From assembly GCF_900110835.1 (NCBI RefSeq), contig NZ_FOJG01000001.1, forward strand, positions 1,561,022 to 1,625,021: DNA of 64,000 nt, given 5' to 3'. This stretch comes from Chitinophaga arvensicola (GTDB taxonomy: Bacteria; Bacteroidota; Bacteroidia; Chitinophagales; Chitinophagaceae). Position 1 is the first letter of the stretch. The number at the start of each line of letters is the position of its first letter. Positions 2,543-34,193 of this stretch are shown here, in pieces. Both the position numbers and the translations under genes were made by a program. A model generated the notes under the pieces. It was not told the DNA's origin. It made no database searches and saw only the letters and a program-made list of their open reading frames with translations.

Positions 2543-3679
2543 TTACTCTCCCAGGGAAGCCTTGCCACTGCCCAATCCCCAGTTAATACCAAAGAGAGAA
2601 ACAATGCTGTGTTTATCTCCGAAATTTTTTCCAAACGCACCGTTGATATACAAACCATCCCTGATTTTATAACTGATTACACCTACATTCCTGTATTGTT
2701 CATCTATTTCATCGAGGAAATAATGGCGGTACATAAATTCATACCCGATAGAAAACTGGTTAAACTCAAAAGCCACCTTTCCGCCTACATCTATATTATT
2801 GGATTTTACGAGTCCGCTCTTGGGCGATAGTGCATAACCATCATACATGTAACGGGCATTTACAAGTACATCGAGATAGTTGGTAGTGGGCTTTTTATCA
2901 CTTGGATTCAAGGGAATGTAACTGGCTACAGTAGTCCATACGCCTGCCCTGCCCGTTTTCCAGGTGCTGTCTCCCACGCCGTAGGTAGCATAGGCGCCTG
3001 CAATATCCCAGGAGATGAGGGGTTTTTCTGTCATCAGGTCGGCGATGTTGGCGGCCAGTTGATCAGGGTTTTCCTCCCAGTATTTTGTGATGGCCTGTTT
3101 CAGTTCATCGCCGGTTTTGCCGGCGGTGGCTAACACCAGTTTTGCAGGTGGCGGCTGACTGGCCCAATCATTCACCGCTTTATTAAGGCGATCAAAATGT
3201 TTGGCCCGGTACCAACGGATGATATTCGCTCTCACACCGGCGGAAAACACTTTTTGCGTAGTGCTGGCGGTATCGGGCAGCATATCTTTGGATGTAAAGG
3301 ACGCAGACACGGAAGCGAATTTTAATCCGGAGAAAATATCCTGTCCCGTTACCTTTAATGCGCCGGATGGAAGTTTGGTGGTTTTCAGGCCCAGGTATTT
3401 ATAGGCATTATGATCACCGGATTTTACCCACCAGTACGGGGAGGTTTCCATCGAATAACTTTGCGGCCACCCGGTGCTGCCATCAAATGTTTGCAGGATA
3501 CCGAGTACCAGCGCTTTCGGCGTGGTAGGGGCTTCAATGTTGGTGGGGGAAAGATCGATCAACTGAAAACCTGGTGACCTGGGTGCGGCAAGATCTTTCG
3601 GTTGCACAGGCCCGGCGCTGTTCTGCGCAGCAACTGCCACCGGCAGGGTTAACAATAAAAAAAGAAGCAGGCGTTTCAT
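2543..3679 (-). CDS. Predicted outer-membrane or periplasmic protein in the protease operon
   Basis: This 378-residue protein has a clear Sec signal peptide (hydrophobic residues 4-15, cleavage near AAQ). The central part is rich in Lys, Trp and Pro. The last ~120 residues contain alternating aromatic/polar strands with short turns, resembling the end of an outer-membrane beta barrel. I do not recognise the family. It is the last gene of a four-gene minus-strand cluster and starts 2 bases after the small gene at 3682-4080, so the two are almost surely co-transcribed. It would be the only exported member of the cluster, which makes it a candidate target, receptor or export partner for the proteases. 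That role is inference. Confidence 0.7.
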   Translation of the reverse strand: MKRLLLFLLLTLPVAVAAQNSAGPVQPKDLAAPRSPGFQLIDLSPTNIEAPTTPKALVLGILQTFDGSTGWPQSYSMETSPYWWVKSGDHNAYKYLGLKTTKLPSGALKVTGQDIFSGLKFASVSASFTSKDMLPDTASTTQKVFSAGVRANIIRWYRAKHFDRLNKAVNDWASQPPPAKLVLATAGKTGDELKQAITKYWEENPDQLAANIADLMTEKPLISWDIAGAYATYGVGDSTWKTGRAGVWTTVASYIPLNPSDKKPTTNYLDVLVNARYMYDGYALSPKSGLVKSNNIDVGGKVAFEFNQFSIGYEFMYRHYFLDEIDEQYRNVGVISYKIRDGLYINGAFGKNFGDKHSIVSLFGINWGLGSGKASLGE

Positions 3680-3681
3680 CG

Positions 3682-4080
3682 TCAGGGAATTAAAAGGATT
3701 TGTTTGGTGACAATCACTTTGGTGTAGTCTTCATTTGGGACCACCTGGTCGGGAAAGAATTTTGTAAATCCCAGTGGCCCACCTTCGAGGTAGTAAAGTG
3801 CGGTAAGCCGCTCTGATTCTGTTTTACGTTGGTTCTGATCCGTAAAAATGGCGAGACTTATTTCCGTCAGTACCAGTAATTGCTTACCGGGTAAAGTAGT
3901 GGCATCTGTGATGGGCGCCCTGGTAATATCCCCGGATGCATCTGTAGATACTTCTGTCCAGTAAATAGTGGTTCTGCCTTCATCTGTGACCAGCGCACGG
4001 GAACGGGCCAGTCCGAAGGTGTTCACATCACACGCAAATTTAACGAGGTCTAAACCTGCCCCAACCTGATAGGAGTCCAT
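3682..4080 (-). CDS. Small hypothetical protein of the protease operon
   Basis: This 132-residue protein has no signal peptide or membrane segment. Its pattern of short beta strands and turns, with Thr/Asp-rich loops, suggests a compact beta-sandwich-like fold, but I recognise no family. It lies between an M19-like enzyme (124 bases upstream) and the outer-membrane-like protein (2 bases downstream). The 124-base gap holds a plausible promoter at 4164-4194, so this gene and the next may also be expressed separately from the proteases. Possible roles include inhibitor, immunity protein or adaptor; none can be chosen from sequence. Confidence 0.65.
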   Translation of the reverse strand: MDSYQVGAGLDLVKFACDVNTFGLARSRALVTDEGRTTIYWTEVSTDASGDITRAPITDATTLPGKQLLVLTEISLAIFTDQNQRKTESERLTALYYLEGGPLGFTKFFPDQVVPNEDYTKVIVTKQILLIP

Positions 4081-4163
4081 ATTGATTATAGTTAATGATG
4101 ATCATAAAAAAGCGCGGGATATAGGGTCAGCGCTACTTTCAGCTTCACAGGAACGATGATGCA

Positions 4164-4194
4164 CAAGATAAAACGAGCTGACAATAAAAACAAA
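4164..4194 (-). promoter_or_regulatory. Possible internal promoter of the protease operon
   Basis: On the minus strand TTTG (4194-4191) is followed after 20 bases by TATCTTG (4170-4164), close to the TTTG/TAnnTTTG promoter. It lies in the only sizeable gap of the cluster and would drive the small gene and the outer-membrane-like gene with a leader of about 75 bases. Confidence 0.35.
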
Positions 4195-4204
4195 TTACGT
4201 TGTC

Positions 4205-5875
4205 CTATTCTTCCCAGTTTGTTAAATACCGCGCGGTGAAATTTACGCCATTGGTATACATGAATTTTTCAATCACAGTGTCCAGATATCCCACATCAAG
4301 AGAGCCGTCTGAAGGATTGTAGCGGAGAGAACGGGTATTATTTCCATCTCCTGTATTCAGGTATTTATCAGCAACAGGCAGGTATTTTTTTAACCCGGCT
4401 GCGAGAGAAGATAATTCCACAATATTATCCAGGCGGTTGATCGGATTGATGAGTCCATCGAAATCAGAGCCGATGCTCAGGTGATCCCAGGGAGAAGTAT
4501 CCGGTTGCCAGGCCAGGCCGGTATTACCCACGCGTACCGCATATACGAGATGCAGACACAACAGCATCAGGTGGCGTTCCGCCCTGGAAGGAAGGCTCAG
4601 GAAATCAAACAGTCCTTCTGCACCGGGCAGTTGTCCGTCTCTGAACAATTTCTCCCACTCTTCTTTCGCAATGTATTCCGGATCAAAATATTGCGGCCGG
4701 CTGCTGTCGATCATCTTTTCCGCTCCAAGGATACGTTGGTCGAGGCTAACGCCGATCAATCCTTTGGAGCCCATGATCTCTATAATTTCTTCATCGAATA
4801 GATTGATGGTCCAGGGGTTGCCATAGAGGCCACTGTTGATGGCATCGTTGGTTTTACCGATCTTCCTGTTTTCGGATTCCACTATGCATACAAATGTGCC
4901 GTTTTCCATACCGGTGTTGGACCTGAATTGTTTTTTTGCGAGATAATTACTCAACGAGGTAAACGTAAAACCGGTATGAGAAGTGATGATGGGTAACCTG
5001 CTCACAGTCGGTATTTCATTGATGAGCGATTCACGGTAGCGGTAGTAATGAAAGCGCGTATACACACTCATATGTTTAATGTCGATGAGAACTGGCCGTG
5101 TAGCATGTGTTAAAGCCTGGCGGATTACTTTTTTGCCCAGCTGTGTTAGTCCCAGCCCTGCTTTGGGCATAAAGTCTTCGCTGCTGAAGGCAATCTGTGC
5201 CTGTTTGTTCAGTCCCTGTGCAAATCCTCCCAGTGATTGTTCCGGAATATAACTCAGGTGACAAAGGTTGATGCTGATATAATCCAGTTCGCTATTGTCC
5301 TGGATCTCTTTCAGGTTAAGTTCCGGTGTTCTGGAAAGTGCAGCGCCACGGATGGGCACATCGGATAAATTATGTCCGCCTTCTATCGAAAAAATGAGGT
5401 AACGTGTTTCGTTATCATTTTTCAGGGTATCAATAATTTGCTGGCGGCTTTGATTCAGCCAGTCTTTCCGGCCGGTATACCTGATATGATAGGGTGCGGC
5501 AGCCAGGAAATTTTTATTGTCGAGATATAGTTTTACCTGTTGCTTAAACTCCGCATAGTAGTTGGTCTGGCCATCGCGGGTTTTATTGACAATATCCTGG
5601 TTCAGCGGCAGTATTCCGGAGAAATCGATGCCCAGTACATGCAGGATGCGGCGGGCAAAAGCATGTTCGAGACTGATAATGGAAGTGACGCCGAGAAACA
5701 GCTGACTGTCTTTTACCTGGTTGGGCGATGCCTGGCTGTTAAACGGGCCGCCAAAGAGATCGTTCAGTAAACTGGCCACGCCGCTTGTTTTTATCTGTTC
5801 ATTGATAGGTGTACCATTGCTGAGATAATGTTTGAACAGCAGGTGAAAATGGAAATCGAAGATCTTGTTTGCCAT
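4205..5875 (-). CDS. M19 (membrane dipeptidase-like) zinc peptidase, extended form
   Basis: This 556-residue protein has the layout of the M19/renal dipeptidase branch of the amidohydrolase superfamily. It shows an H-x-H pair near the start (His9, His11), a Glu in an SIEGGH motif (Glu165) in the place of the metal-bridging Glu, His268 in IKHMS, His300 in ITSHTG, and a late Asp471 in GSDFDG, the family signature. Such enzymes hydrolyse dipeptides or related small amides with two zinc ions. The protein is longer than typical members (about 350-420 residues), with inserts at about 20-60 and 380-430. It has no signal peptide, so it is probably cytoplasmic. It starts 8 bases after the dual-protease gene stops, indicating one operon. 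A role in trimming peptides released by the upstream protease is inferred. Confidence 0.8.
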   Translation of the reverse strand: MANKIFDFHFHLLFKHYLSNGTPINEQIKTSGVASLLNDLFGGPFNSQASPNQVKDSQLFLGVTSIISLEHAFARRILHVLGIDFSGILPLNQDIVNKTRDGQTNYYAEFKQQVKLYLDNKNFLAAAPYHIRYTGRKDWLNQSRQQIIDTLKNDNETRYLIFSIEGGHNLSDVPIRGAALSRTPELNLKEIQDNSELDYISINLCHLSYIPEQSLGGFAQGLNKQAQIAFSSEDFMPKAGLGLTQLGKKVIRQALTHATRPVLIDIKHMSVYTRFHYYRYRESLINEIPTVSRLPIITSHTGFTFTSLSNYLAKKQFRSNTGMENGTFVCIVESENRKIGKTNDAINSGLYGNPWTINLFDEEIIEIMGSKGLIGVSLDQRILGAEKMIDSSRPQYFDPEYIAKEEWEKLFRDGQLPGAEGLFDFLSLPSRAERHLMLLCLHLVYAVRVGNTGLAWQPDTSPWDHLSIGSDFDGLINPINRLDNIVELSSLAAGLKKYLPVADKYLNTGDGNNTRSLRYNPSDGSLDVGYLDTVIEKFMYTNGVNFTARYLTNWEE

Positions 5876-5883
5876 GGGGTCAA

Positions 5884-8703
5884 TTATTTTGCAGCATTTT
5901 CGATGATAGACTGGACGGTATTAAATCGTTGGAGCAGATCCGGGTAAGTGGTGGTGGTGGCGCTTTCATAGGCGCTTACACTCGTTCCGAAAGTGGCGCT
6001 TTCCAGTGCGCGTGCGCTGTCCGATAATTGCGTAGCCGGCGCTGCGAGCGATTCCTGGTTGCCTCTTTTGGTGCCGAAGATGGCGTCATGTAATTTGTTC
6101 CAGTATGTTTTTACGATTTCGGCATATCCTTGCAGGGAGTTTAAAAAAGCGCTCTCATTCCACCCGTCGTAGGGGTTCTTTAATTTGTTGGCTGCTTTGG
6201 GCGGGGTATTTAATAATTTTTCTGCATTGAGAATACCGCTGCCAAATCCTTTCCGGGGTAGCTGATCGCTTTTGCGTGCGGAGTCTTTCAGTGCTTGTCT
6301 GAATGCTTCTACTCTTTTCCAGCCGGCATATTCCGGGGCTTTGAGGATGTCCTGGTATTTGGCCAGCCAATAGGCGGCTGCAGCGGCCACGTGTGGGGTG
6401 GCATAGCTGGTACCATCGCCATAGGCAAATCCTTCGGGGTGGTCGCTGGTTTCCTGCCAGATGGGGACCAGTACGTCTTCACCGGGAGCGGTAATATCTA
6501 CGGTATCGCCACGGGAGGAACCGGTCCATTCACGGTCGAGCGGATTAGAGGCTGCTACGGCAATAGTGCCCGGAAATACGGCGGGAGCAACAACGGCCTG
6601 CACGCTGTTGCCGGCGGCGCAACACCAGATCACACCGCTTTCATAGGCTTGTCTGGCGAGTTTGGCGGTAGTTAAGGTGGGCGGAATACCCATGCTCATG
6701 GTAATGATATCAAAGCCCTGGGCAATCGCCGCATCCAGTGCGGCTGCCAATTGTTGCTGGCGGTTGATGATCACCACCGTTTCGGCTATACGAAACGGAA
6801 CCAGTTTATAATTGTCGGGTGTGAGTAGTCCACAATTGCCATTACCGGCTGCCGGGGAATACTGATGGCCAATAAGGAGGCTACCCGTGCGGGTGCCGTG
6901 ACCGGGTTGCTTGCCAAAGGCAACCGTACGGAGGTCGATGGCTACGTCGGTATTGTCGAGGAAGTTGTAGTCATTGTCGGTATCAAAAGAGTCAATGACT
7001 TTGGAGTGATCGGTGAAGCCGGTATCGAACTGCACTACGCGGATTCCTTTTTCATGGGGAGATACGGGGGCTTTTTCCGGCGTCAGTATTTTATCAAAGC
7101 CGGTGGCCAGCCAGTTCCAGCGGCGGTATTCTTCTTCTTTTTTGCCGGATACAAATTTGCTGATGGCGTTTACAGTATAATTTTTCAGGAAGAGATCTTC
7201 ATTCGGAGTACCATATCCATCATCAAACAGGAACCCGGATTCCGTAGGCCCGCCGCCTTTCCTGAGCACATTGGCCGTGTCTGCATTGAGATACAAAGGC
7301 AGGTCGGCTTCTGCATAAAAAATGCCTGGTATTTTGGCCAGTTCCCGTGCTTCTTCGTGGGCATTGCCACTGAAGTTGACGGTAAAGGTAAAGAGCGCTT
7401 CTTTATCGGGTGTTGCGGTGGCCGGCGTGAGTAGCGATAGCTTTACACCCGGTGGATATTTCAGGGACAATACGGCCTCTATCTGCGCTACTGTAGCCGG
7501 TTTATTCATGGCTGCAATAATAAAGGGTGTGAGGCTGCTGATCGCATTTGTAGCAGGAGTATCCATGGTGTTTTCTTTGGGAGATGAAGGAATAATGGGC
7601 AGGTTCACCGCATCATTTTTATTGGCGGCTGTTACTACCTGGTTAATGCCTTGCCGGATCACGGTTTGATCCGCCAGCGCCTGTTGCAGTTGTGGTGCAA
7701 TGATATCTGTATCTCTGAGTAGGGCGCTACGGCCATTTTCCATTTCGGCCGACAGAGAGGCTTCGCGTATGGCGCTCACTATTACACTTACTTTAATGCC
7801 TTCGTTACCGATCCAGTCGATCTGATCATCCGGTGTATCGGGAGTTGCCAGTTGTCCGTCTCTTGTGAGCACACGGTTTTGGTCGTCTGTACGGGAAAGA
7901 CCGCTATGATGCAGGGCGATCACTTCACAGGTGCCGAGACCGAAAACCGGGGAGCCGCTGCTGCCGGGCAGTGTATCCGATTCATACACCAGCCGGGTAC
8001 CAGTTTCAGAGAAGAAATGAATATCTTTCATCACTACTTTTTTGGGTAACCCATTCGGGTGTTGTACAATCACGCAGGCTTCTCCCTTGATGATTTTACC
8101 CAGGTTGCCATCCAGCCGGATCGGGGGAAACTGGGATAGCGCTTCTCCGAAATTGCCGGTGGTATTGACACCTATCAGGGTAAAGTCCAGACCTGTATTC
8201 AGCGCGGTTTTACTGACTTCCAGGCTGGATGTAAGAAAGAACTTACGGGCGTCCAGCTTAAAGGCAGCGCTTCTTTTCAAGGCTTTGGTGTTGGGATCGA
8301 CTTCATAATTGAACTCCGCCATCATATCTTCCGCGTCAGCGGCAGATTCAATAACATGGTGATTGGTGAGCAGGATATCCGGGGTAACGAGGAAGCCGGT
8401 GCCGATTGGCGCCCCTCCTTTCAGGATACGGCATACTGCCCTCGACATCTCCGAGAGCCGGTCGAGTACGTATTTATCCTGGAAATCGGCAGTGCCGGTA
8501 ATGCGCTCCAGCGCAGTGGCTACTACGGGTGTGTTTTCACGTGCTACGCGGTATTGCACGCGGGTGGCGTTATCTTCCAGTTGTACTAAAGGTTGATTGG
8601 CATTCCGTAAGGCATTCAACTTTCTTTCAGCTGCTTCAAAGTCGGACCGGCGGTTACCAAAACGATTAGCTACTTCCTGGATTACTTTCCAATGAGGTAT
8701 CAT
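5884..8703 (-). CDS. Fused trypsin/V8-like protease and subtilisin-like (S8) protease
   Basis: This 939-residue protein carries two complete serine-protease triads of different folds. Residues ~85-310 are a chymotrypsin/V8-like domain: GTGFLV leads to TNHHV (His116), then LDFTLIG (Asp173) and GSSGSPVF (Ser249). Residues ~400-475 resemble a propeptide-like alpha/beta segment. Residues ~550-830 are a subtilase: VVQFDTGF (Asp560), GHGT (His602), AAGN (Asn699, oxyanion hole) and GTSYATPH (Ser766). The N-terminal 85 residues (helical, ending in an LERITG-type stretch) precede the protease as in the adaptor-like N-termini of some bacterial V8-like conflict-system proteases. The C-terminal ~100 residues are Ala/Ser-rich. 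There is no signal peptide. It is the first gene of the cluster. Both active sites look intact. The fusion is confidently read; its substrate is unknown. Confidence 0.88.
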   Translation of the reverse strand: MIPHWKVIQEVANRFGNRRSDFEAAERKLNALRNANQPLVQLEDNATRVQYRVARENTPVVATALERITGTADFQDKYVLDRLSEMSRAVCRILKGGAPIGTGFLVTPDILLTNHHVIESAADAEDMMAEFNYEVDPNTKALKRSAAFKLDARKFFLTSSLEVSKTALNTGLDFTLIGVNTTGNFGEALSQFPPIRLDGNLGKIIKGEACVIVQHPNGLPKKVVMKDIHFFSETGTRLVYESDTLPGSSGSPVFGLGTCEVIALHHSGLSRTDDQNRVLTRDGQLATPDTPDDQIDWIGNEGIKVSVIVSAIREASLSAEMENGRSALLRDTDIIAPQLQQALADQTVIRQGINQVVTAANKNDAVNLPIIPSSPKENTMDTPATNAISSLTPFIIAAMNKPATVAQIEAVLSLKYPPGVKLSLLTPATATPDKEALFTFTVNFSGNAHEEARELAKIPGIFYAEADLPLYLNADTANVLRKGGGPTESGFLFDDGYGTPNEDLFLKNYTVNAISKFVSGKKEEEYRRWNWLATGFDKILTPEKAPVSPHEKGIRVVQFDTGFTDHSKVIDSFDTDNDYNFLDNTDVAIDLRTVAFGKQPGHGTRTGSLLIGHQYSPAAGNGNCGLLTPDNYKLVPFRIAETVVIINRQQQLAAALDAAIAQGFDIITMSMGIPPTLTTAKLARQAYESGVIWCCAAGNSVQAVVAPAVFPGTIAVAASNPLDREWTGSSRGDTVDITAPGEDVLVPIWQETSDHPEGFAYGDGTSYATPHVAAAAAYWLAKYQDILKAPEYAGWKRVEAFRQALKDSARKSDQLPRKGFGSGILNAEKLLNTPPKAANKLKNPYDGWNESAFLNSLQGYAEIVKTYWNKLHDAIFGTKRGNQESLAAPATQLSDSARALESATFGTSVSAYESATTTTYPDLLQRFNTVQSIIENAAK

Positions 8704-10262: not shown

Positions 10263-11141
10263 ATGAAACTAACGATATCCGGTTATTCTACAGCATTGTT
10301 TTCCACCTGGTACTTCCTGGAAGAACTGGGTATTTTAATGGATGCCGGCGATGGACTAACCGCAGCGCTTTTACAGAAAAGCAGGAAGATCAGTCATGTA
10401 TTTATTTCACATGCCGACAGGGATCATCTCACGGGGTTATTGCAACTGAATCAGCTGAATGCCCGCGAAGGATTGCCGGTCATTTGTTATCCGAGAGACA
10501 GCAAATCTTTTCCGGCCATGGAGGAATTTTCAAAAAGATTTGATCCGCATATTCGCGGTACGCAGTGGCAGGCCGTAGGACCGGAAGAGGAGATATGGGT
10601 GAAAGATGATGTGGTAGTGGTGCCGGTGCGGAATGAGCATGTTACTACGGAGCCGCACATTATCCGGAGCCTGAGTTATAAAGTGATGCAGGTAAAACAG
10701 AAGGTGAAGCCGGAAATTGCAGCGCTTCCGCCAGAAGAAATCCGACAGATCATCCTCGAAAGAGGAAAAGAAAGTACCACTATGGAAGTAAGAACCAACC
10801 TGGTGGGGTATTCCGGTGATACGCCGGTGCAAGACCTGGCGCGTTGGGATCAGTCGGGAGTGCTGATCCATGAGGCTACTTTTTTAGCCAGCGAGGGAGA
10901 TGTGAAACTTGTTGCGCACAAGAATAAACACAGTAAGCTGGAAGAAGTGATGGATATGGTAAGCCATATCCGTGTGGAGCAGCTGGTGCTGGGGCATTTC
11001 TCTTCCCGCTATAGTGCGGAGCAGATTGACCGGAGCATTAAAGATCTCTGTGAAAAATATGCGATCAATATCCCGGTGTTCCGGTTATTACCCGGACTAA
11101 CGGTAAGGGATATACTTTCTACTACACCTGTTAATCAGTAA
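10263..11141 (+). CDS. MBL-fold (RNase Z-like) metallo-hydrolase
   Basis: This 292-residue protein has a metallo-beta-lactamase core: an N-terminal strand pair ending in MDAGDG, the metal motif HADRDH at residues 50-55, GYSGDTP at ~187-193 (a third-motif Asp), HEATF and a C-terminal LGHFSSRY. The order and the HEATF/HFSSR motifs are those of RNase Z-like and related phosphodiesterases. The usual second His of HxHxDH is replaced by Asp52, a variant seen in some MBL subfamilies, so metal binding may differ. No signal peptide. It stands alone and ends at a strong terminator. True tRNase activity is uncertain because the substrate-binding arm is not recognisable. Confidence 0.8.
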   Translation: MKLTISGYSTALFSTWYFLEELGILMDAGDGLTAALLQKSRKISHVFISHADRDHLTGLLQLNQLNAREGLPVICYPRDSKSFPAMEEFSKRFDPHIRGTQWQAVGPEEEIWVKDDVVVVPVRNEHVTTEPHIIRSLSYKVMQVKQKVKPEIAALPPEEIRQIILERGKESTTMEVRTNLVGYSGDTPVQDLARWDQSGVLIHEATFLASEGDVKLVAHKNKHSKLEEVMDMVSHIRVEQLVLGHFSSRYSAEQIDRSIKDLCEKYAINIPVFRLLPGLTVRDILSTTPVNQ

Positions 11142-11182: not shown

Positions 11183-12898
11183 TTACCAACCTTCGTTCTG
11201 TTTCATCTTCGGGTTTCTCAGTGTTTCATCCGTGTTGATGGGGATGAGGTACATCGCGTTTCGCCAGAGGCGGTCTTCCACTTTAAATTTCTCGTAACGG
11301 TAACCACCGGGAGCGCTTTCATCTGCAATGGGGCGCATACCATAAATTACCTTTTCTGTATTTTCTGCTATTTTCCACCGGCGTACATCCCAGAAGCGAT
11401 GGTTTTCAAAAGCGAGTTCAATTCTTCTTTCGTTGTGGATGCGCTGGCGCATTTCGGCCTGACCTAATCCAGTAGGGAGTTCCGGCTGTCCGGCGCGGGA
11501 GCGTATCAGGTTAATATACCTGGCAATATCTGCATTACCGGGATCGTATTCATTCAGGGCTTCTGCATAGTTGAGGTAGCATTCTGCCAGGCGGAAGAGG
11601 ATGCCATGTACATCTCTGCCCGGAGCCTGGTTGATGGTAATACTTTCGTCTGCCAGTTTGCGGCAGCTGTAGCCGGTTCTGCTATGATCGGTCTGTGTGC
11701 TTTGTTCGTCTTTGCCTCTTTCGAAGGTTTCGATCTTACGGCCTTTCCAGGCAGCGCCATTGTAGGAGATATCGGTATAGAAACGTTTGTCGCGGTTTTC
11801 ATAAGGTTTAGCCGCATTGTAACCCGAGGCAGGATCTGTGATAGCTTTGCCATTGGCCATTTCATAATCATCGACCAGGTTCTGGGTGGGCGAGCAGCCG
11901 GACCAGCCGTTGCTGCCGTATGGAAAGAGGTAGCGGTCGTAGGAATCGTTGGTTTCCTTCATTCTCACCCAGATCACTTCTTTACTGAGGAGGGTGTTAT
12001 TGGTAAACATATTGAGTCGGTCGGCCAGTGTATTTTCAAGTTTATACTCGGCGCCCTGTGTACCCTGGAGATCGATCACCTCTTTGGCAGCAGCGGCGGC
12101 TTTACGCCATTTTTCCGGATCAGTAGCACTGGTGCCGGTGCTGATATCACCCTGGTAGCTGGTTTTGCCGGCGATGGCCCAGAGCGGGCTGGCGCTGAAC
12201 AGGAGCATCCTGGATTTTAAAGCCATACACGTGCCTTTGGTAACCCTGCCCACCTGTGTAGTAGGGTAGATAACGGGGAGACGTTTGATGGCTTCATCAC
12301 AATCAGCAACGATCTGTGCCACACATTCATCGTAGGTGTTACGTGGCTGATTCAGTGCTACTTCATCTGATTGATCAATAGTTTTGGTGACGATGATAGC
12401 GCCGCCGTATTGACGGATCAGTTCTGCGAGATAATAAGCCCGCAGGAAATATACTTCGCCGATGCGGTTTTGTAAGGCACCGGGATTGTTGGCGTCGTCC
12501 GGCGTATTGTATTTTGCCACTCCCTCCAGGATGGCATTTGCCTGGCGGATGGCTACGTAGTTATCTCTCCAGGTGTTGCCGATAGGGTTGTTGGCGCCAG
12601 ACCAGGAGCCGTTGTTAAAGCTCATGGAGCCCATCCAGGAAGAAGCATCTTTAGCTTCATCGGTGCCGGAAGACATAGAGTAGCCACCGAGATAGGTGTA
12701 AGCACCGCGCAGGCGGGAGTACAGGTTGCTGACCACCTGGTCGGTCATGGCGAAACTGGTAAAGATATCTTTGTCCTGTTGTTGTGTGGTGGCGGCTCTG
12801 TCGAGAAAGCCTTTTTTACAGGAAGCGATGGAACCCAGTAATACGATACCTAACAGCAGTTTCCACCAACCAGACATTTTTCTATAACGAGCGTACAT
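11183..12898 (-). CDS. SusD/RagB family nutrient-binding lipoprotein (locus 1)
   Basis: This 571-residue outer-membrane lipoprotein has a signal peptide with lipobox SIASC at about residues 23-27 followed by KKGFLD, the usual SusD start. The N-terminal TPR-like helices (residues ~45-220) and the C-terminal conserved block (FRLAECYLNYAEALNE at about 430-445, then RIHNERRIELAFENHRFWD) are the RagB/SusD signatures. SusD proteins form the lid over the SusC channel and bind oligosaccharides or peptides at the cell surface. It lies 34 bases downstream of SusC and ends at a terminator. No glycoside hydrolase is next to it, so the substrate cannot be predicted. Confidence 0.95.
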   Translation of the reverse strand: MYARYRKMSGWWKLLLGIVLLGSIASCKKGFLDRAATTQQQDKDIFTSFAMTDQVVSNLYSRLRGAYTYLGGYSMSSGTDEAKDASSWMGSMSFNNGSWSGANNPIGNTWRDNYVAIRQANAILEGVAKYNTPDDANNPGALQNRIGEVYFLRAYYLAELIRQYGGAIIVTKTIDQSDEVALNQPRNTYDECVAQIVADCDEAIKRLPVIYPTTQVGRVTKGTCMALKSRMLLFSASPLWAIAGKTSYQGDISTGTSATDPEKWRKAAAAAKEVIDLQGTQGAEYKLENTLADRLNMFTNNTLLSKEVIWVRMKETNDSYDRYLFPYGSNGWSGCSPTQNLVDDYEMANGKAITDPASGYNAAKPYENRDKRFYTDISYNGAAWKGRKIETFERGKDEQSTQTDHSRTGYSCRKLADESITINQAPGRDVHGILFRLAECYLNYAEALNEYDPGNADIARYINLIRSRAGQPELPTGLGQAEMRQRIHNERRIELAFENHRFWDVRRWKIAENTEKVIYGMRPIADESAPGGYRYEKFKVEDRLWRNAMYLIPINTDETLRNPKMKQNEGW

Positions 12899-12932
12899 AA
12901 TTTTGAATTTAAAAAAGTTAACAGCTGTTTAC

Positions 12933-15900
12933 TTAAAACCTAACATCAATTCCGAAGTTCCAGATCCGTTGGATAGGATACATGGCGCCGTTGCCATCGC
13001 CTATTTCCGGGTCTACCTGGTAGTCCTTCAGCTTATCCCAGGTAAGCAGGTTCATACCGTTGGCGTATATACGGAAATAGGAAAGTCCTACCGGTTTGAT
13101 CCATTTTTTGGGTAATTGATAACCTATCTCCGCATTTTTAAGGCGCAGGTAACTGGCGTCTTTCACCCAGAAGGAAGAGGCCCGGTGATTATTGCCGTTG
13201 GTGCTGCTGTGCAGGCGTGGATAAGTGGCAGTAGCCGCTGTTTCAGGTGTCCAGCGGCCAAGGTGGAATGGTTTCACTTTTCCGCCCTGGAAGAATTCGT
13301 ACACGGCTTCATTTTCCAGGCGCAGATCGGTATGTGTAGCGCCCTGGAATAGCAGGGAGATGTCGAAGCCTTTGTAAGCGGCGCCTAAAGTAGCTCCGAA
13401 CATGATTTCCGGCGTACGTGCGTAACCGATAGCTGTTTCGTCGAAATTAGACTGTATATAATCGTAGGTATCTCCGGTGAGTTTTTTGTATTTGATATCG
13501 CCGGGACCATATTGGGAGAAGTTCTGGAACGGGCTGTTTTTTACATCGTTTTCATCTTTAAAGAATCCGTCGGCTACCAGTCCGAATTTGGTGTTAATCG
13601 GGTGACCGGTGCGTTTCATCCAGGGATATGCCTGTGGCACTTCATCCTGGAATACAATATTGTTGCGTGCGAAAGTAACATTGGGTTTGATGAAATAGGT
13701 TACGTTGCCGATGCGGTTTTCGTGGCTCAGTTCCAGTTCAAAGCCTTTATTGTCTACGATACCGATATTTTGTGCTTTGATATCCTGGCCAAATACATCA
13801 GAGAGAGTGCTACGTCTGATGAGGATCTGACTTCTTCTTTGTTTAAAAACATCCAGCGTGATGCCCAGCAAATTTTTCCAGAGGCGGGCTTCCAGTCCGA
13901 TATTTGCCTGGCGGCCGCGTTCCCAGGTAACGCCGGGGTTGCCAATGGCGCCTTGTTTCCAGCCGTTTGCCTGGCCGGCGTTGGTACCAAAATAGTAGGG
14001 ATCGCCACCACCCCAGGAGGTAAACCACAGGAAGCGGTCATCTCCTGCCTGGTCATTACCTACTTCACCATAGGAACCTCGTATTTTCAGGAAGCTGAGG
14101 AAGGATACATTGTCTTTGATGAAATTTTCTTCCGAGAGTACCCAGCCGGCAGATACCGATGGGAAGAAGCCATAGCGGCTTTCTTTGGGGAAGTTTTCAG
14201 ATCCCTGGTAAGAGGCGCTCACTTCCAGCAGGTACTTTTGCATATAGTTGTAAGTACCACGGAACAGGAGCGACTGATACGCTTTAGGAATAGAGGCGCC
14301 ACTTTCGGTAAGGCGGCGGTTCCAGAGCAACATACCGGTAGCTTCGTGTTTTCCGAATTGCCGGTTCCAGTTCATCACTGCTTCGAGATAAGTGCTGCGG
14401 TTAGCACCTCCACCGTTGAAGGAGCCGTTTGGATCTATTTTGGTATCCTGGCCGGATTGTTTGTAGCTGGTAATATTTCCCTGTGCATCGTAGAGCGGCT
14501 CAAATACGGCGTAATTGCGGCCATAGGTAGCGCTGGGGGTATTGGTGTTGTCGTAGGAGAAAGACGCTTTTGCAGTCAGATTTTTGGTGATGACATCCAG
14601 TTTACGGGTGAGTGCAAATGTTCCCTGAACGGTGTTGTTATAAAAGCGGCGGTATCCTTTCTGTGATAATTCCCCGAAGATATTGGACTGAAAGGTACCA
14701 TTGCCCCACATAGAACCATTGGGGTTAAAGATGGGATAAATAGGCGCCATGCGGTTGGCGAGGTTCATGATATCGCCGGCGCTGTTGTTACCATCGCGGC
14801 GATCGGTCATGATACCGGCAATATCTACGCGGGCAGCCAGGGTAGGGGTAATATCCACGTCTACGTTAGCACGGAGGTTATAACGTTTGATGTTGTTATT
14901 GCCGTTATAGCCATCTGCATTTTCTTTGGAGTGCGCGTAAATACCATCCTGTACGTTGTATCCGGCAGAAATGAAGTAGCGGGCGATGTTGTTACCGCCG
15001 CTGACGTTCAGGTTGCCCTGGGCTACAGAAGAGGGTTTCATCATGAATTTGTAGTAATCGGTATTGGGGAGGGAGCCGTTTTTGTATCCTTCCAGTTGTT
15101 TTTGGTTAAATGCGGGTTCTGCTCCGTCGTTTACGAGTGCTTCATTGTAGAGAGTGGCGTAGTCGTAGGAACCCAGGTATTTCGGTAAGCGGGTGGCTTC
15201 GGTGATACCGGTAGAGGCGCGGAAGCTCACAGCAGGAGGGCCGGCTTTACCGCGTTTGGTAGTGATGAGGATAGCCCCGTTGGCGCCACGCATCCCGAGT
15301 ACGGCGGTAGCCGCTGCATCTTTCAGGATGGTGAGGGTTTCGATGTCGTTGGGATCTACATAGTCCATAGGGCGTTCTATACCATCTACCATGATGATCG
15401 GAGAAGCGCCGTTGAGGGTGGCAACGCCCCGGATATAAAGGGAGCTGCCATCTACACCTGGTTCACCACTGCGCTGAGTGGTGATGAGGCCGGGAAGGCG
15501 GCCTGCCAGCGCGTTGGTGAGGTTAGATACCGGGCTTTGCACCAGTTCTTTGGTATTGATGGAAGCGATGGCGCCGGTAACGGTTGCTTTTTTCTGTTGG
15601 CCGTAAGCCACTACTACCACGTCTTTAAGACCGAAGCTGGCAGGTAGCAGGGTTACGTCTGTTTGATTGGATGCCGTTATTTCCACTTCCTTTGTTTCAT
15701 ATCCGATGAAAGAAAAGACAAGGACTTTCTGATTGGCGGGCACCTGCAGGCTGTAGGTACCATCGCTTTGTGTTTGTGTACCTCTGCTGGTGCCTTTTAC
15801 CTGCACGGAAACGCCTGGTAGTACGGTGTTGGTTTTATTTTCCACCACAGAACCGATGATGGTGCGCATGGGGGCTGAATTGGTGGCGGCGGGCAGCGGA

Positions 15901-18344: not shown

Positions 18345-18377
18345 TTTGTTTTTGTGAATATTTATTTCCTACATTTG
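18345..18377 (+). promoter_or_regulatory. Bacteroidota-type promoter of the second tRNA-Pro
   Basis: TTTG at 18345-18348 and TACATTTG at 18370-18377 are 21 bases apart, the same architecture as the first copy. The sequence between them is similar but not identical to copy one, so the two promoters are related by an older duplication. Confidence 0.7.
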
Positions 18378-18402: not shown

Positions 18403-18476
18403 CGGGGCGTAGCGTAGCCCGGTATCGCGCCTGCTTTGGGAGCAGGAGGTCGCAGGTTCGAATCCTGCCGCCCCGA
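18403..18476 (+). tRNA. tRNA-Pro, anticodon TGG (second copy)
   Basis: It is base-for-base identical to the tRNA at 138-211 (same acceptor, anticodon TGG, T-arm, discriminator A). Identity continues 8 bases past the gene. Its 3' end is the left boundary of a mini-island whose other end is a 17-bp repeat at 19704-19720. Confidence 0.97.
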
Positions 18477-18487
18477 CTTAGAAAGAA

Positions 18488-30926: not shown

Positions 30927-31583
30927 TTAATATAACTGGTTCCGCAGAATCCGTTTGATCATCTGTATAGTGGTGCGGCTCACATGCCCTTTGTATTTCT
31001 GGAGAATATTACTTTCGCTTTCTCCTTCGCTGAGTTCATTCACCACCCGCAGCCATTTGCCCAGGAATTCTGAATTAGGGGTACGGTATCTGAGGAGCCG
31101 TCGTACTGTTTCAATGATAGCTTTATGCACGGTGCCCTCGTGCAGTTCAAATACTTCGTCGTTGTTAAGTCCCAGTTTGATATCGTCGGCAATGCGGGAA
31201 TAATCCTGCAGGTATTTTTCGTTGGCTTCCATTACCTGCAACATGGGATTATCGCTGAAGGTGATATCGGCGTATTTGCGATGCTGCTTCTGTAGGGCAT
31301 GCAGGGCATAGTTCCGCGCAATGTTGTCGCAGATGATGAGATCGTCTTTACTCAGTTCAAACCATTCCCCTTTAACGCGTTTATGCTGGAAAACAATGTG
31401 CAGACTTTCTTCCAGGTCGGTCATGTTCTGGGCCGCGTATTGCCTGATGATGCGGAACATAACGGGCAGGTGTGTATGATAAGCGGCCAGCCGCTTATGC
31501 AGATCCTGGGTTTTGCCGATCTTATACAGGTTCTTACCTGTATTCAGGATATACACACATTTACCAACTTGTACTTGCTCCAT
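30927..31583 (-). CDS. T5orf172-type GIY-YIG protein with C-terminal helix-turn-helix-like tail
   Basis: In this 218-residue protein residues ~8-90 form a T5orf172/GIY-YIG domain: CVYILNTGKNLYKIGKTQDL followed by HKRLAAYH gives the two-strand GIY-YIG equivalent (YIL...YKIGKT) and the Arg helix, and ESLHIVFQHKRVKGEWFELS supplies the conserved Glu and the family's EWF block. This suggests a DNA-nicking or DNA-binding enzyme. The C-terminal ~60 residues (ESESNILQKYKGHVSRTTIQ) look like a helix-turn-helix. Such proteins are frequent in phages and as stand-alone genes. It is a single gene with no phage neighbours here. Confidence 0.8.
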   Translation of the reverse strand: MEQVQVGKCVYILNTGKNLYKIGKTQDLHKRLAAYHTHLPVMFRIIRQYAAQNMTDLEESLHIVFQHKRVKGEWFELSKDDLIICDNIARNYALHALQKQHRKYADITFSDNPMLQVMEANEKYLQDYSRIADDIKLGLNNDEVFELHEGTVHKAIIETVRRLLRYRTPNSEFLGKWLRVVNELSEGESESNILQKYKGHVSRTTIQMIKRILRNQLY

Positions 31584-33207: not shown

Positions 33208-33229
33208 AAAAACCGTATCTCCGGTTTTT
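33208..33229 (-). terminator. Terminator overlapping the stop of the PI-PLC gene
   Basis: AAAAACCG (33208-33215) and CGGTTTTT (33222-33229) form an 8-bp stem. One arm includes the first part of the stop codon of the minus-strand gene (33228-33230), and T-rich sequence follows in the reading direction. Confidence 0.6.
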
Positions 33230-34193
33230 AGAAGTTGGTGTTGATGATTAAAGTATTGCGGTCGGCCGCGGCAAAGTCCATCGGGATAATACCGTATCTG
33301 CCATGTGTATTACTGGTAAAATAGGTATTGATCCGTGGGTTGATGTTGTTGGAAACGGTGGTGATACTGGGAATGCCGAAGATGAGGGATTTGTAGCCGC
33401 TGGTGAAATTGATATATAGCACGGACTGGCTACCACTCTGTGCTTCCGTGAACAGGTTGGTGATACCGGTCCATTTGTTGTTATTGTCGGGTACTACATA
33501 CTGGTCCTGCACTCTCAGGGAGGAGTTGGTATTGTTGATGGAAAAAGTGGTGTTATCTGACCAGTTGGTGGCTTCGATGCCTTTGGGCGTAGCGGAGGCA
33601 CCGAATCTTCTCAGCAGTACAATTTTACCTCTTACCGATCCGAGATTGGGCACTGCATCTCCGAGGTACCATTTTGAAGGTTGCAGTTGGGTGTAGCTGT
33701 CGAACGTTTGTTCAAAGCTGCGGGTGTTGTTGGTGGCGTCATATTCCTCTTTCACGCACATGATGATGGTTTCGGTAGGGTTGGCGGCGAGGAAATTGTA
33801 GCAGGCGGTTAATACGTCCGTAAAATTCAGGTTCTGGTAAATAGATCCGTGGTGAATGGCGAAGGCGTCGCCGATGTGACGGCAGCGGATGTCCAGGAAG
33901 CGGGTACCGGCATTGAGTTGTTCGCCGATAGTGAGGTTCTGGCATTTGGCCGTGCCGCTCACCGGTTCTACGCGGGCGCCGCTGTCGTGTGTGCCGGGAA
34001 TAGAGAGGCTGGTGAGGGCGGTGTTGTCTGCTAAGGAGCCCATCCATCCGGTAAGGCTAACACTTAACGTGTTTACAATAGCGGCGTTGTTCACTGTTTC
34101 AATGCCTGCGGTGGCATTGGGATTTGTAAGGTCTTTTTTACAGCCAAAGAATGTACAGGTGGCCAGGGCCAGTGAGAGGATTTTCATGTTCAT
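33228..34193 (-). CDS. Phosphatidylinositol-specific phospholipase C-like lipoprotein
   Basis: This 321-residue protein has a lipoprotein signal with lipobox FFGC (Cys18). The PI-PLC X domain shows SIPGTHDSGAR (His69/Asp70, the general base pair), LDIRCR (Arg103) and IHHGS (His114/His115), matching the catalytic His-Asp-Arg-His set of bacterial PI-PLC. Later IIMCVKEEYD and VLLRRFG fit the barrel. Such enzymes cleave phosphatidylinositol or GPI-like lipids without metal. Being a surface or periplasmic lipoprotein, it may act on foreign or host lipids. It forms its own unit, divergent from the sigma factor of locus 2. Confidence 0.9.
   Translation of the reverse strand: MNMKILSLALATCTFFGCKKDLTNPNATAGIETVNNAAIVNTLSVSLTGWMGSLADNTALTSLSIPGTHDSGARVEPVSGTAKCQNLTIGEQLNAGTRFLDIRCRHIGDAFAIHHGSIYQNLNFTDVLTACYNFLAANPTETIIMCVKEEYDATNNTRSFEQTFDSYTQLQPSKWYLGDAVPNLGSVRGKIVLLRRFGASATPKGIEATNWSDNTTFSINNTNSSLRVQDQYVVPDNNNKWTGITNLFTEAQSGSQSVLYINFTSGYKSLIFGIPSITTVSNNINPRINTYFTSNTHGRYGIIPMDFAAADRNTLIINTNF

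Follow-up and report, generated by a model that had tools for sequence, protein, structure and literature searches.

In a window of 64,000 nucleotides from the 8.3-Mb genome of Chitinophaga arvensicola (contig NZ_FOJG01000001.1, positions 1,561,022 to 1,625,021), four genes that we call P1 to P4 stand in one row on the minus strand at 2543-8703, and the apparent operon they form consists of two independently conserved gene pairs. P1 (5884-8703) encodes a V8-type (Trypsin_2) protease fused to a pro-subtilisin of family S8 (939 amino acids, aa), P2 (4205-5875) a predicted M19-like metallohydrolase (556 aa), P3 (3682-4080) a small protein of 132 aa, and P4 (2543-3679) a putative exported, outer-membrane-like protein of 378 aa. 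A sequence-only reading of this DNA had taken the four for one coherent proteolytic module with an M19 partner and a possible role in defence or toxin activation. Its layout of four genes in the same direction, with intergenic gaps of 8, 124 and 2 bases, is borne out by the coordinates of the open reading frames (ORFs), and its proteolytic character holds for P1-P2, where Pfam domains confirm it. The unity of the module did not hold: of 79 genomes of the genus, the window's own is the single one where the pairs adjoin, and within the genus they co-occur at about the level of chance. We consider the chances about even that the locus represents two independent cassettes, namely a cytoplasmic, conflict-type proteolytic effector pair (P1-P2) and an envelope pair (P3-P4) that has come to lie behind it.

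The separation into pairs was observed in several sets of genomes. When each protein was searched for in 59 genomes, P3 was detected in 9, P4 in 15, P2 in 18 and P1 in 33 of them, the own genome counted; the P1 matches were mostly confined to a single domain, and full-length P1 was present in five genomes. Outside the window, full-length P1 always had P2 beside it and never P3 or P4. P4 in turn adjoins each of the nine good P3 places, and outside the window neither P1 nor P2 is found there (a weak tenth P3 match, L020, has stops in frame and no P4 beside it and was not counted). Among the 79 genus genomes, P1 (E 1e-80 or better) occurs in seven and P4 (1e-30) in 17. Both are present in two of them, the own genome and G487, whereas about 1.5 would be expected from multiplication of the two frequencies. 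The co-occurrence of homologues of all four proteins in other genomes, which the sequence-only reading had proposed as a check, was thus confirmed within each pair, but no second genome was found in which all four are adjacent.

A module of four genes, in which P1-P2 would process the exported P3-P4 or be triggered through them, is the alternative closest to that earlier proposal, and we regard it as unlikely, though worth keeping in mind. It would be in line with the common strand, the short gaps and a terminator-like hairpin of 11 pairs that a sequence scan places 3' of P4 only (2509-2533). It also draws on a Hymenobacter plasmid of similar layout, where P1-P2 have genes for a transmembrane (TM) protein and an amidase before them, and behind them genes for an amidase, for a protein of 116 aa and for an exported-looking one of 382 aa. 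The TM and amidase proteins of this plasmid are 52% and 63% identical to a pair of G487 that two intervening genes separate from P3 on its upstream side, and G487 carries P1-P2 and P3-P4 on one contig, about 41.5 kb apart. Several results speak against the module, in addition to the lack of any other genome with joined pairs. The 116-aa and 382-aa proteins were rejected as homologues of P3 and P4, as profile comparison gave probabilities below 1%. The TM-amidase pair was dropped as a core component, since it stands without P1-P4 in 7/7 further 19-kb stretches. Its two genes, TM and amidase or peptidoglycan-binding, overlap or abut in all nine loci inspected (L133:2967-4971, L220:2373-4344 and L236-L242); the TM family occurs in 41/79 genus genomes and is also found beside a P3-P4-type pair in G391. 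A link between the cassettes through the TM-amidase pair is therefore suggestive only.

The 124-base gap between P2 and P3 (4081-4204) bears on the same question. Two of the 12 weak sigma-70-like promoter matches of the region fall inside it on the gene strand, which also counts against the four-gene module. By eye, the gap contains a TTTG-N20-TATCTTGT stretch that resembles a Bacteroidota promoter, with two mismatches to the consensus; the exact consensus was absent from the gap when scanned. The terminator scan reported no site in the gap, and the six terminator-like sites found in the region are no excess over a shuffle mean of 7.6. Judged from these signals, a single transcript across P1-P4 is possible.

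P1 and P2 form a tight pair. P2 adjoins full-length P1 in all 17 loci found, which belong to Chitinophaga, Larkinella, Spirosoma, Sabulibacter, Hymenobacter and metagenome-assembled genomes (MAGs). Twelve of these loci came out of a scan of genome contigs in which the P1 alignment was the query: three from Chitinophaga, four from Larkinella, one each from Spirosoma and Sabulibacter, and three from MAGs. Three of the twelve coincide with genomes G002, G004 and G027 and enter the count once. Together with the window, G001 and a Hymenobacter canadensis plasmid, the twelve make up 15 aligned pairs, including one in which P2 is cut by the contig end (L127), and G465 and G487 complete the 17. In 15/15 loci the two genes lie on the same strand with a gap of -29 to +37 bases, and the P1 and P2 distances of the 15 pairs are strongly correlated (Mantel r 0.967, reached by 0/5000 permutations). 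The closest named relatives of P1 come from Chitinophaga, with 85% identity in C. ginsengisegetis. In the trees, Larkinella terrae and L. humicola group with most Chitinophaga, L. soli and L. arboricola group with Spirosoma, and G001 stands apart from the remaining Chitinophaga. Because Larkinella is split into two groups and G001 set apart in this way, P1-P2 seems to move as a unit. The pair has apparently also moved locally, since in G004 it sits between homologues of window genes at 33228-34193 (phosphatidylinositol-specific phospholipase C-like) and 30927-31583 (GIY-YIG-like; both labels by eye), which in the window lie some 22-25 kb from P1-P2. In viral contigs, P1 gave only nine distant matches to its V8 part, with 23-25% identity.

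Peptidoglycan hydrolases are found near P1-P2 in a minority of loci: a CHAP protein in G004 with a counterpart of like length in G002, amidases in Hymenobacter and an M15 peptidase in G487. The C. ginsengisegetis-type locus L093 has a CHAP/peptidoglycan-binding gene (7283-8035) before P1 and a gene for a 370-aa protein (12706-13818) after P2. This 370-aa protein has no Pfam match and carries a DUF4157-like motif. Such a motif, a DUF4157 gene near a V8-endonuclease gene on a Streptomyces plasmid, and sheath matches in the P1 carriers G001, G002 and G004 (under the cut-off in the latter two) could suggest that an extracellular contractile injection system carries P1-P2 as its cargo. We hold this to be very improbable: PF04984, the sole sheath family tried, has no match in the window's own genome (G000), and sheath matches are common anyway (22/36 genomes).

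P1 contains two complete protease domains. Pfam detects Trypsin_2 at aa 101-263 (7915-8403; E 3.4e-14) and Peptidase_S8 at aa 552-823 (6235-7050; E 6.6e-26), and both serine triads, H116/D173/S249 and D560/H602/S766 with N699, are kept in 15/15 aligned homologues, so that the two protease triads claimed for this protein from the sequence are now well founded. The region ahead of the subtilisin, at about aa 390-470 (7294-7536), has no sequence match to the I9 propeptide family in any of four fragments. In the AlphaFold 2 model, aa 391-470 reach block-mean predicted local distance difference test (pLDDT) values of 74-91, and the top PDB fold matches of the model are pro-subtilisins aligned from aa 388-390 onward. 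As modelled, an I9-type propeptide precedes the subtilisin in P1, which gives the protein the look of a zymogen joined to a V8 protease. Tk-subtilisin and subtilisin E are secreted enzymes. P1 has in common with these pro-subtilisins (PDB 3wiv and 3whi) the I9-type propeptide, the S8 domain and the catalytic residues, but differs from them in the V8 domain in front and in having no signal-peptide-like start. Such a start was seen in P4 only, and hence neither in P1 nor in P3, by a hydropathy scan of all four proteins, which is not a dedicated signal-peptide predictor.

Matches of P1 to known defence and maturation proteases are weak. In PADLOC, a subtilase model (1.5e-5, aa 579-790) and Avs1b (5.4e-5, aa 85-141) are followed by RT-Protease_XI (0.01, aa 81-270), LmuA (0.033, aa 85-130) and two further short matches. 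The strongest match in NCBIfam links the S8 domain to mycosin, with 76 bits against a cut-off of 278.75. PatA-type proteases are not known to have a V8 partner. That P1-P2 are maturation proteases of a ribosomally synthesized and post-translationally modified peptide, with P2 trimming the product, appears very doubtful. The S8 domain does match the PatA/PatG and QhpE models, but with 36.4 and 33.2 bits it stays far under cut-offs of 421.05 and 165 bits, respectively. PagA and PatA rank 30th and 38th among the structural matches, and downstream of P1-P2, beyond transposase genes, the Hymenobacter plasmid carries a gene for a lantibiotic dehydratase; when the gene lists were read, neither a precursor nor a modifying enzyme was recognised beside the window genes or at the other P1-P2 loci.

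The partner P2 matches Peptidase_M19 (PF01244) with 29.7 bits against a cut-off of 26. D7/H9/H11, E165, H268 and H300 are invariant over the 15 pairs, as is D471 in 14/14 when the truncated P2 is left out; these conserved residues are presumed to be metal ligands. P2 shares the ligand-like E/H/H/D positions and a GSDFDG motif with the M19 membrane/renal dipeptidases (PF01244; PDB 3neh). It departs from them in its N-terminal DxHxH motif, its weak score, its neighbouring protease gene and its length of 556 aa as compared to 311-318 aa in two PDB relatives. Since both the profile and the ligand positions fit the family, P2 is predicted to be an M19-like hydrolase. It is present on two Hymenobacter plasmids. 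A Hymenobacter volaticus plasmid (L134:2716-9059) carries, in one direction and without P1, genes for an N-acetylmuramidase, two patatin-like ORFs (by eye) and a P2-like 'membrane dipeptidase'.

The V8 domain of P1 has its relatives among conflict-type proteins. A comparison of P1 with a plasmid collection gave 52 records at E 1e-15; among the 20 listed, one, the Hymenobacter plasmid, covers most of P1, 15 match the V8 part only, five of them with an endonuclease annotation, and four match S8 only. By Pfam, Trypsin_2 is combined with Endonuclease_NS in Rhizobium (L185), G029 (L101) and G320 (L119), with EAD1 in G418 (L120), and with Endonuclease_1 on a Streptomyces plasmid (L188:4749-6950) and in G380 (L118:8990-10924); Endonuclease_1 in place of NucA amounts to another effector swap on the same V8 domain. 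A profile built from nine V8-S8 proteins scores these six nuclease- or EAD1-fused trypsins at 128-230 bits and gives 100 bits for the V8 protein of an operon in G013. Common to the V8 relatives of P1 is also a motif before the protease domain, in most of them ER-x-x-G-x-x-D/N. We conclude from these sequence comparisons that trypsins fused to nucleases (Endonuclease_NS, Endonuclease_1) or to EAD1 are homologues of the P1 V8 domain. The resemblance of the N-terminus to V8-like proteases of conflict systems, as first noticed, is therefore borne out as kinship; a role in defence or toxin activation stays conjectural.

Fusions of S8 and Trypsin_2 also occur in reverse order, in Ruegeria (L186:5527-12833) and Sinorhizobium (L187:4563-9440). 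The former adjoins a second trypsin gene and an AAA/NACHT-type ATPase (matches under Pfam cut-offs), and a second trypsin gene is likewise present with the latter; the two trypsins scored from these loci are only remotely alike (20-25 bits). On a Streptomyces plasmid, an S8 gene and a trypsin gene are separated by one small gene. The V8 protease gene of G013 (L102:4639-9834) shares its operon with a gene for a 374-aa protein and a large ATPase-like gene (nSTAND by eye).

These kinships also bear on another explanation, a housekeeping role in which P1-P2 serve the cell's normal turnover of proteins or breakdown of peptides. Acting together, a protease and a dipeptidase-like enzyme could digest protein, and SusC/D-type genes, labelled by eye, come next along in the window. 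Set against this are the patchy occurrence of P1 (7/79 genus genomes), a distribution over lineages that suggests exchange of the pair, and the grouping of the V8 domain with nuclease-fused trypsins; housekeeping thus seems to us an improbable function.

P3 and P4 belong to no Pfam family and have no credible match among solved structures. A single-sequence structure prediction for P3 reached a pLDDT of 39.7 and was not used. The two are conserved as a pair. Within the close family, P3 proteins are 19-37% and P4 proteins 28-42% identical to those of the window. Profile comparison, with E-values that refer to single comparisons, connects both proteins with pairs at a greater distance (P3 probability 94.7, E 6e-8; P4 probability 100, E 1.6e-39) and to a further distant set (E 1.7e-6 and 7.7e-48, respectively). 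Of the 40 P4 loci read, 37 have a small ORF immediately before P4, made up of 17/17 genus, 5/5 class, 6/6 more distant genus and 9/12 distant class loci; the small ORFs of L172, L173, L179, L216, L217 and L222 are assigned by position and not by a homology match. L116, with stops in its frame, was left out of the P4 alignment, and a partial P4 match in G485 is not among the 40. Class-wide, P3 was found in 6 and P4 in 17 of 395 genomes, own genome included. P4 was absent from the viral contigs and plasmids searched, and P3 from the phage records searched. With regard to its exported-looking sequence, an outer-membrane barrel would be our guess for P4. In G401 (L174:8253-9532), a second P4-type gene is split into two overlapping ORFs and may for this reason be broken or reflect a sequencing error.

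P3-P4 is a separate Bacteroidota pair that mostly stands alone. In a few genomes it has conflict-type neighbours. A caspase-GDSL protein and then a CHAT protein follow P3-P4 on the same strand in G474 and G479, with nSTAND1 next in G479 and a DUF4062 gene upstream in G474. Upstream of the pair, G337 has genes for a GH108 lysozyme and for nSTAND1, and in G487 a caspase gene converges on P4. The stretches L216:3065-11321 (G474) and L222:2534-10820 (G479) are each a candidate for a conflict operon with several peptidases and one component that is exported.

Taken together, these data lead us to the following picture of two independent cassettes. The V8-type domain of P1 would act as a regulated initiator. 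Its activation, or cleavage of the linker between V8 and S8 and of the I9-type propeptide, would free an active subtilisin, which might then damage proteins of the cell or of an invader. P2 would take part in this pathway, with short peptides or amides released by the cascade as its probable targets. P3-P4 would provide a small protein and a partner that is exported and probably sits in the outer membrane. We infer the order of activation, the substrates, the trigger, the conflict role and any contact between the cassettes. A bolder version is a two-stage proteolytic suicide or killing switch in which V8 gates the in-chain pro-subtilisin and the M19-like protein is an obligatory second effector, coupled here to P3-P4 as an envelope sensor pair that elsewhere serves caspase-CHAT-nSTAND systems; this version we consider a long shot.

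A number of observations weigh against this picture. The overall confidence of the P1 model is low (mean pLDDT 50.1), and the fold search concerns the part behind the V8 domain. The P1 tree and the P2 tree disagree in their deep branches, and the P1-P2 loci, as judged by ORF starts only, are unlike defence islands. A defence phenotype for P1-P2 is not known. P2-like proteins with about 25% identity occur without P1 in G006, G025 and G028, so that the bond between the two runs from the side of P1. On the side of P3-P4, 17 of the 22 closer loci have no recognised caspase, CHAT, V8, S8 or STAND neighbour, the other five being those of the window, G474, G479, G337 and G487 (tallied by reading ORF lists, with Pfam on chosen neighbours). 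Finally, the arrangement in which P1-P2 adjoin P3-P4 is confined to one of the 79 genus genomes, the window's own.

As to the genes as such, P1, P2 and P4 exceed the longest frame without a stop (234 aa) that arose when the region was shuffled 100 times by mononucleotides. P3 is below this length, and its status as a gene is backed by its conservation in other species. Elsewhere in the window, two tRNA-Pro(TGG) genes are located 18 kb apart, at 138-212 and 18403-18477. Similar promoter-like stretches precede both (30-62 and 18345-18377), such matches being at chance level window-wide.

Among known conflict systems, P1 comes closest to two groups that are led by trypsin-like proteases. In System 3 of Kaur et al. 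2020 (PMC7159879), a trypsin is combined with NucA, which can have S8 and trypsin domains on either side within a single chain, some operons carry lysozyme- and papain-type effectors as well as STAND genes, and activation by a proteolytic cascade is proposed. P1 has the trypsin-like peptidase together with the S8 domain, optional in System 3, in the same chain, and its trypsin is likewise coupled to an effector; unlike in System 3, the subtilisin occupies the place of NucA. No match to the NucA (Endonuclease_NS) domain was found in P1-P4 at E-values up to 1, whereas the domain is present in the relatives L101, L119 and L185. We therefore do not assign P1 to System 3, which is defined by this domain. 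A further difference is the dedicated M19-like partner beside every full-length P1 found; the words 'M19' and 'dipeptidase' do not appear in the main text of PMC7159879.

The second group comprises the pairs of a 2025 study (PMC12799240), according to which a trypsin-like protease switches on a pro-nuclease in Hachiman, AVAST and other systems. The trypsin-like protease of P1 is likewise coupled to a pro-enzyme effector. In those pairs, the protease forms a fusion with a defence enzyme and acts on a metallo-beta-lactamase (MBL)-fold nuclease that has a gene of its own, typically upstream; in P1, by contrast, protease and pro-enzyme share one chain, the pro-enzyme being a subtilisin, and a sensor domain was not recognised. 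The MBL-fold gene of the window (10263-11141) does not adjoin P1 but lies on the opposite strand with two genes between. In G004 its homologue, too, is at a distance from P1-P2 (about 7 kb), and the stretches taken from G002 and G027 yielded none above the filter. P1 is not fused to HamA, Avs1 or LmuA either: HamA gave no match, and the Avs1b and LmuA matches fall within or just before the trypsin domain.

In view of the kinship of its V8 domain and of the systems in PMC7159879 and PMC12799240, P1 looks like a trypsin-effector device with a pro-subtilisin as the effector. Of the literature searches for a trypsin-S8-M19 combination, some returned nothing and others listed PMC10907252, and we do not claim that the combination is absent from print. 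The trypsin-led conflict effectors in the two sources end in nucleases, and P1-P2 would add a version in which a protease acts on a protease. The pair would make it testable whether a wholly proteolytic cascade serves bacterial cells for dying or for killing, and the occasional caspase, CHAT and nSTAND neighbours of P3-P4 should make that pair a handle on how such systems touch the envelope.

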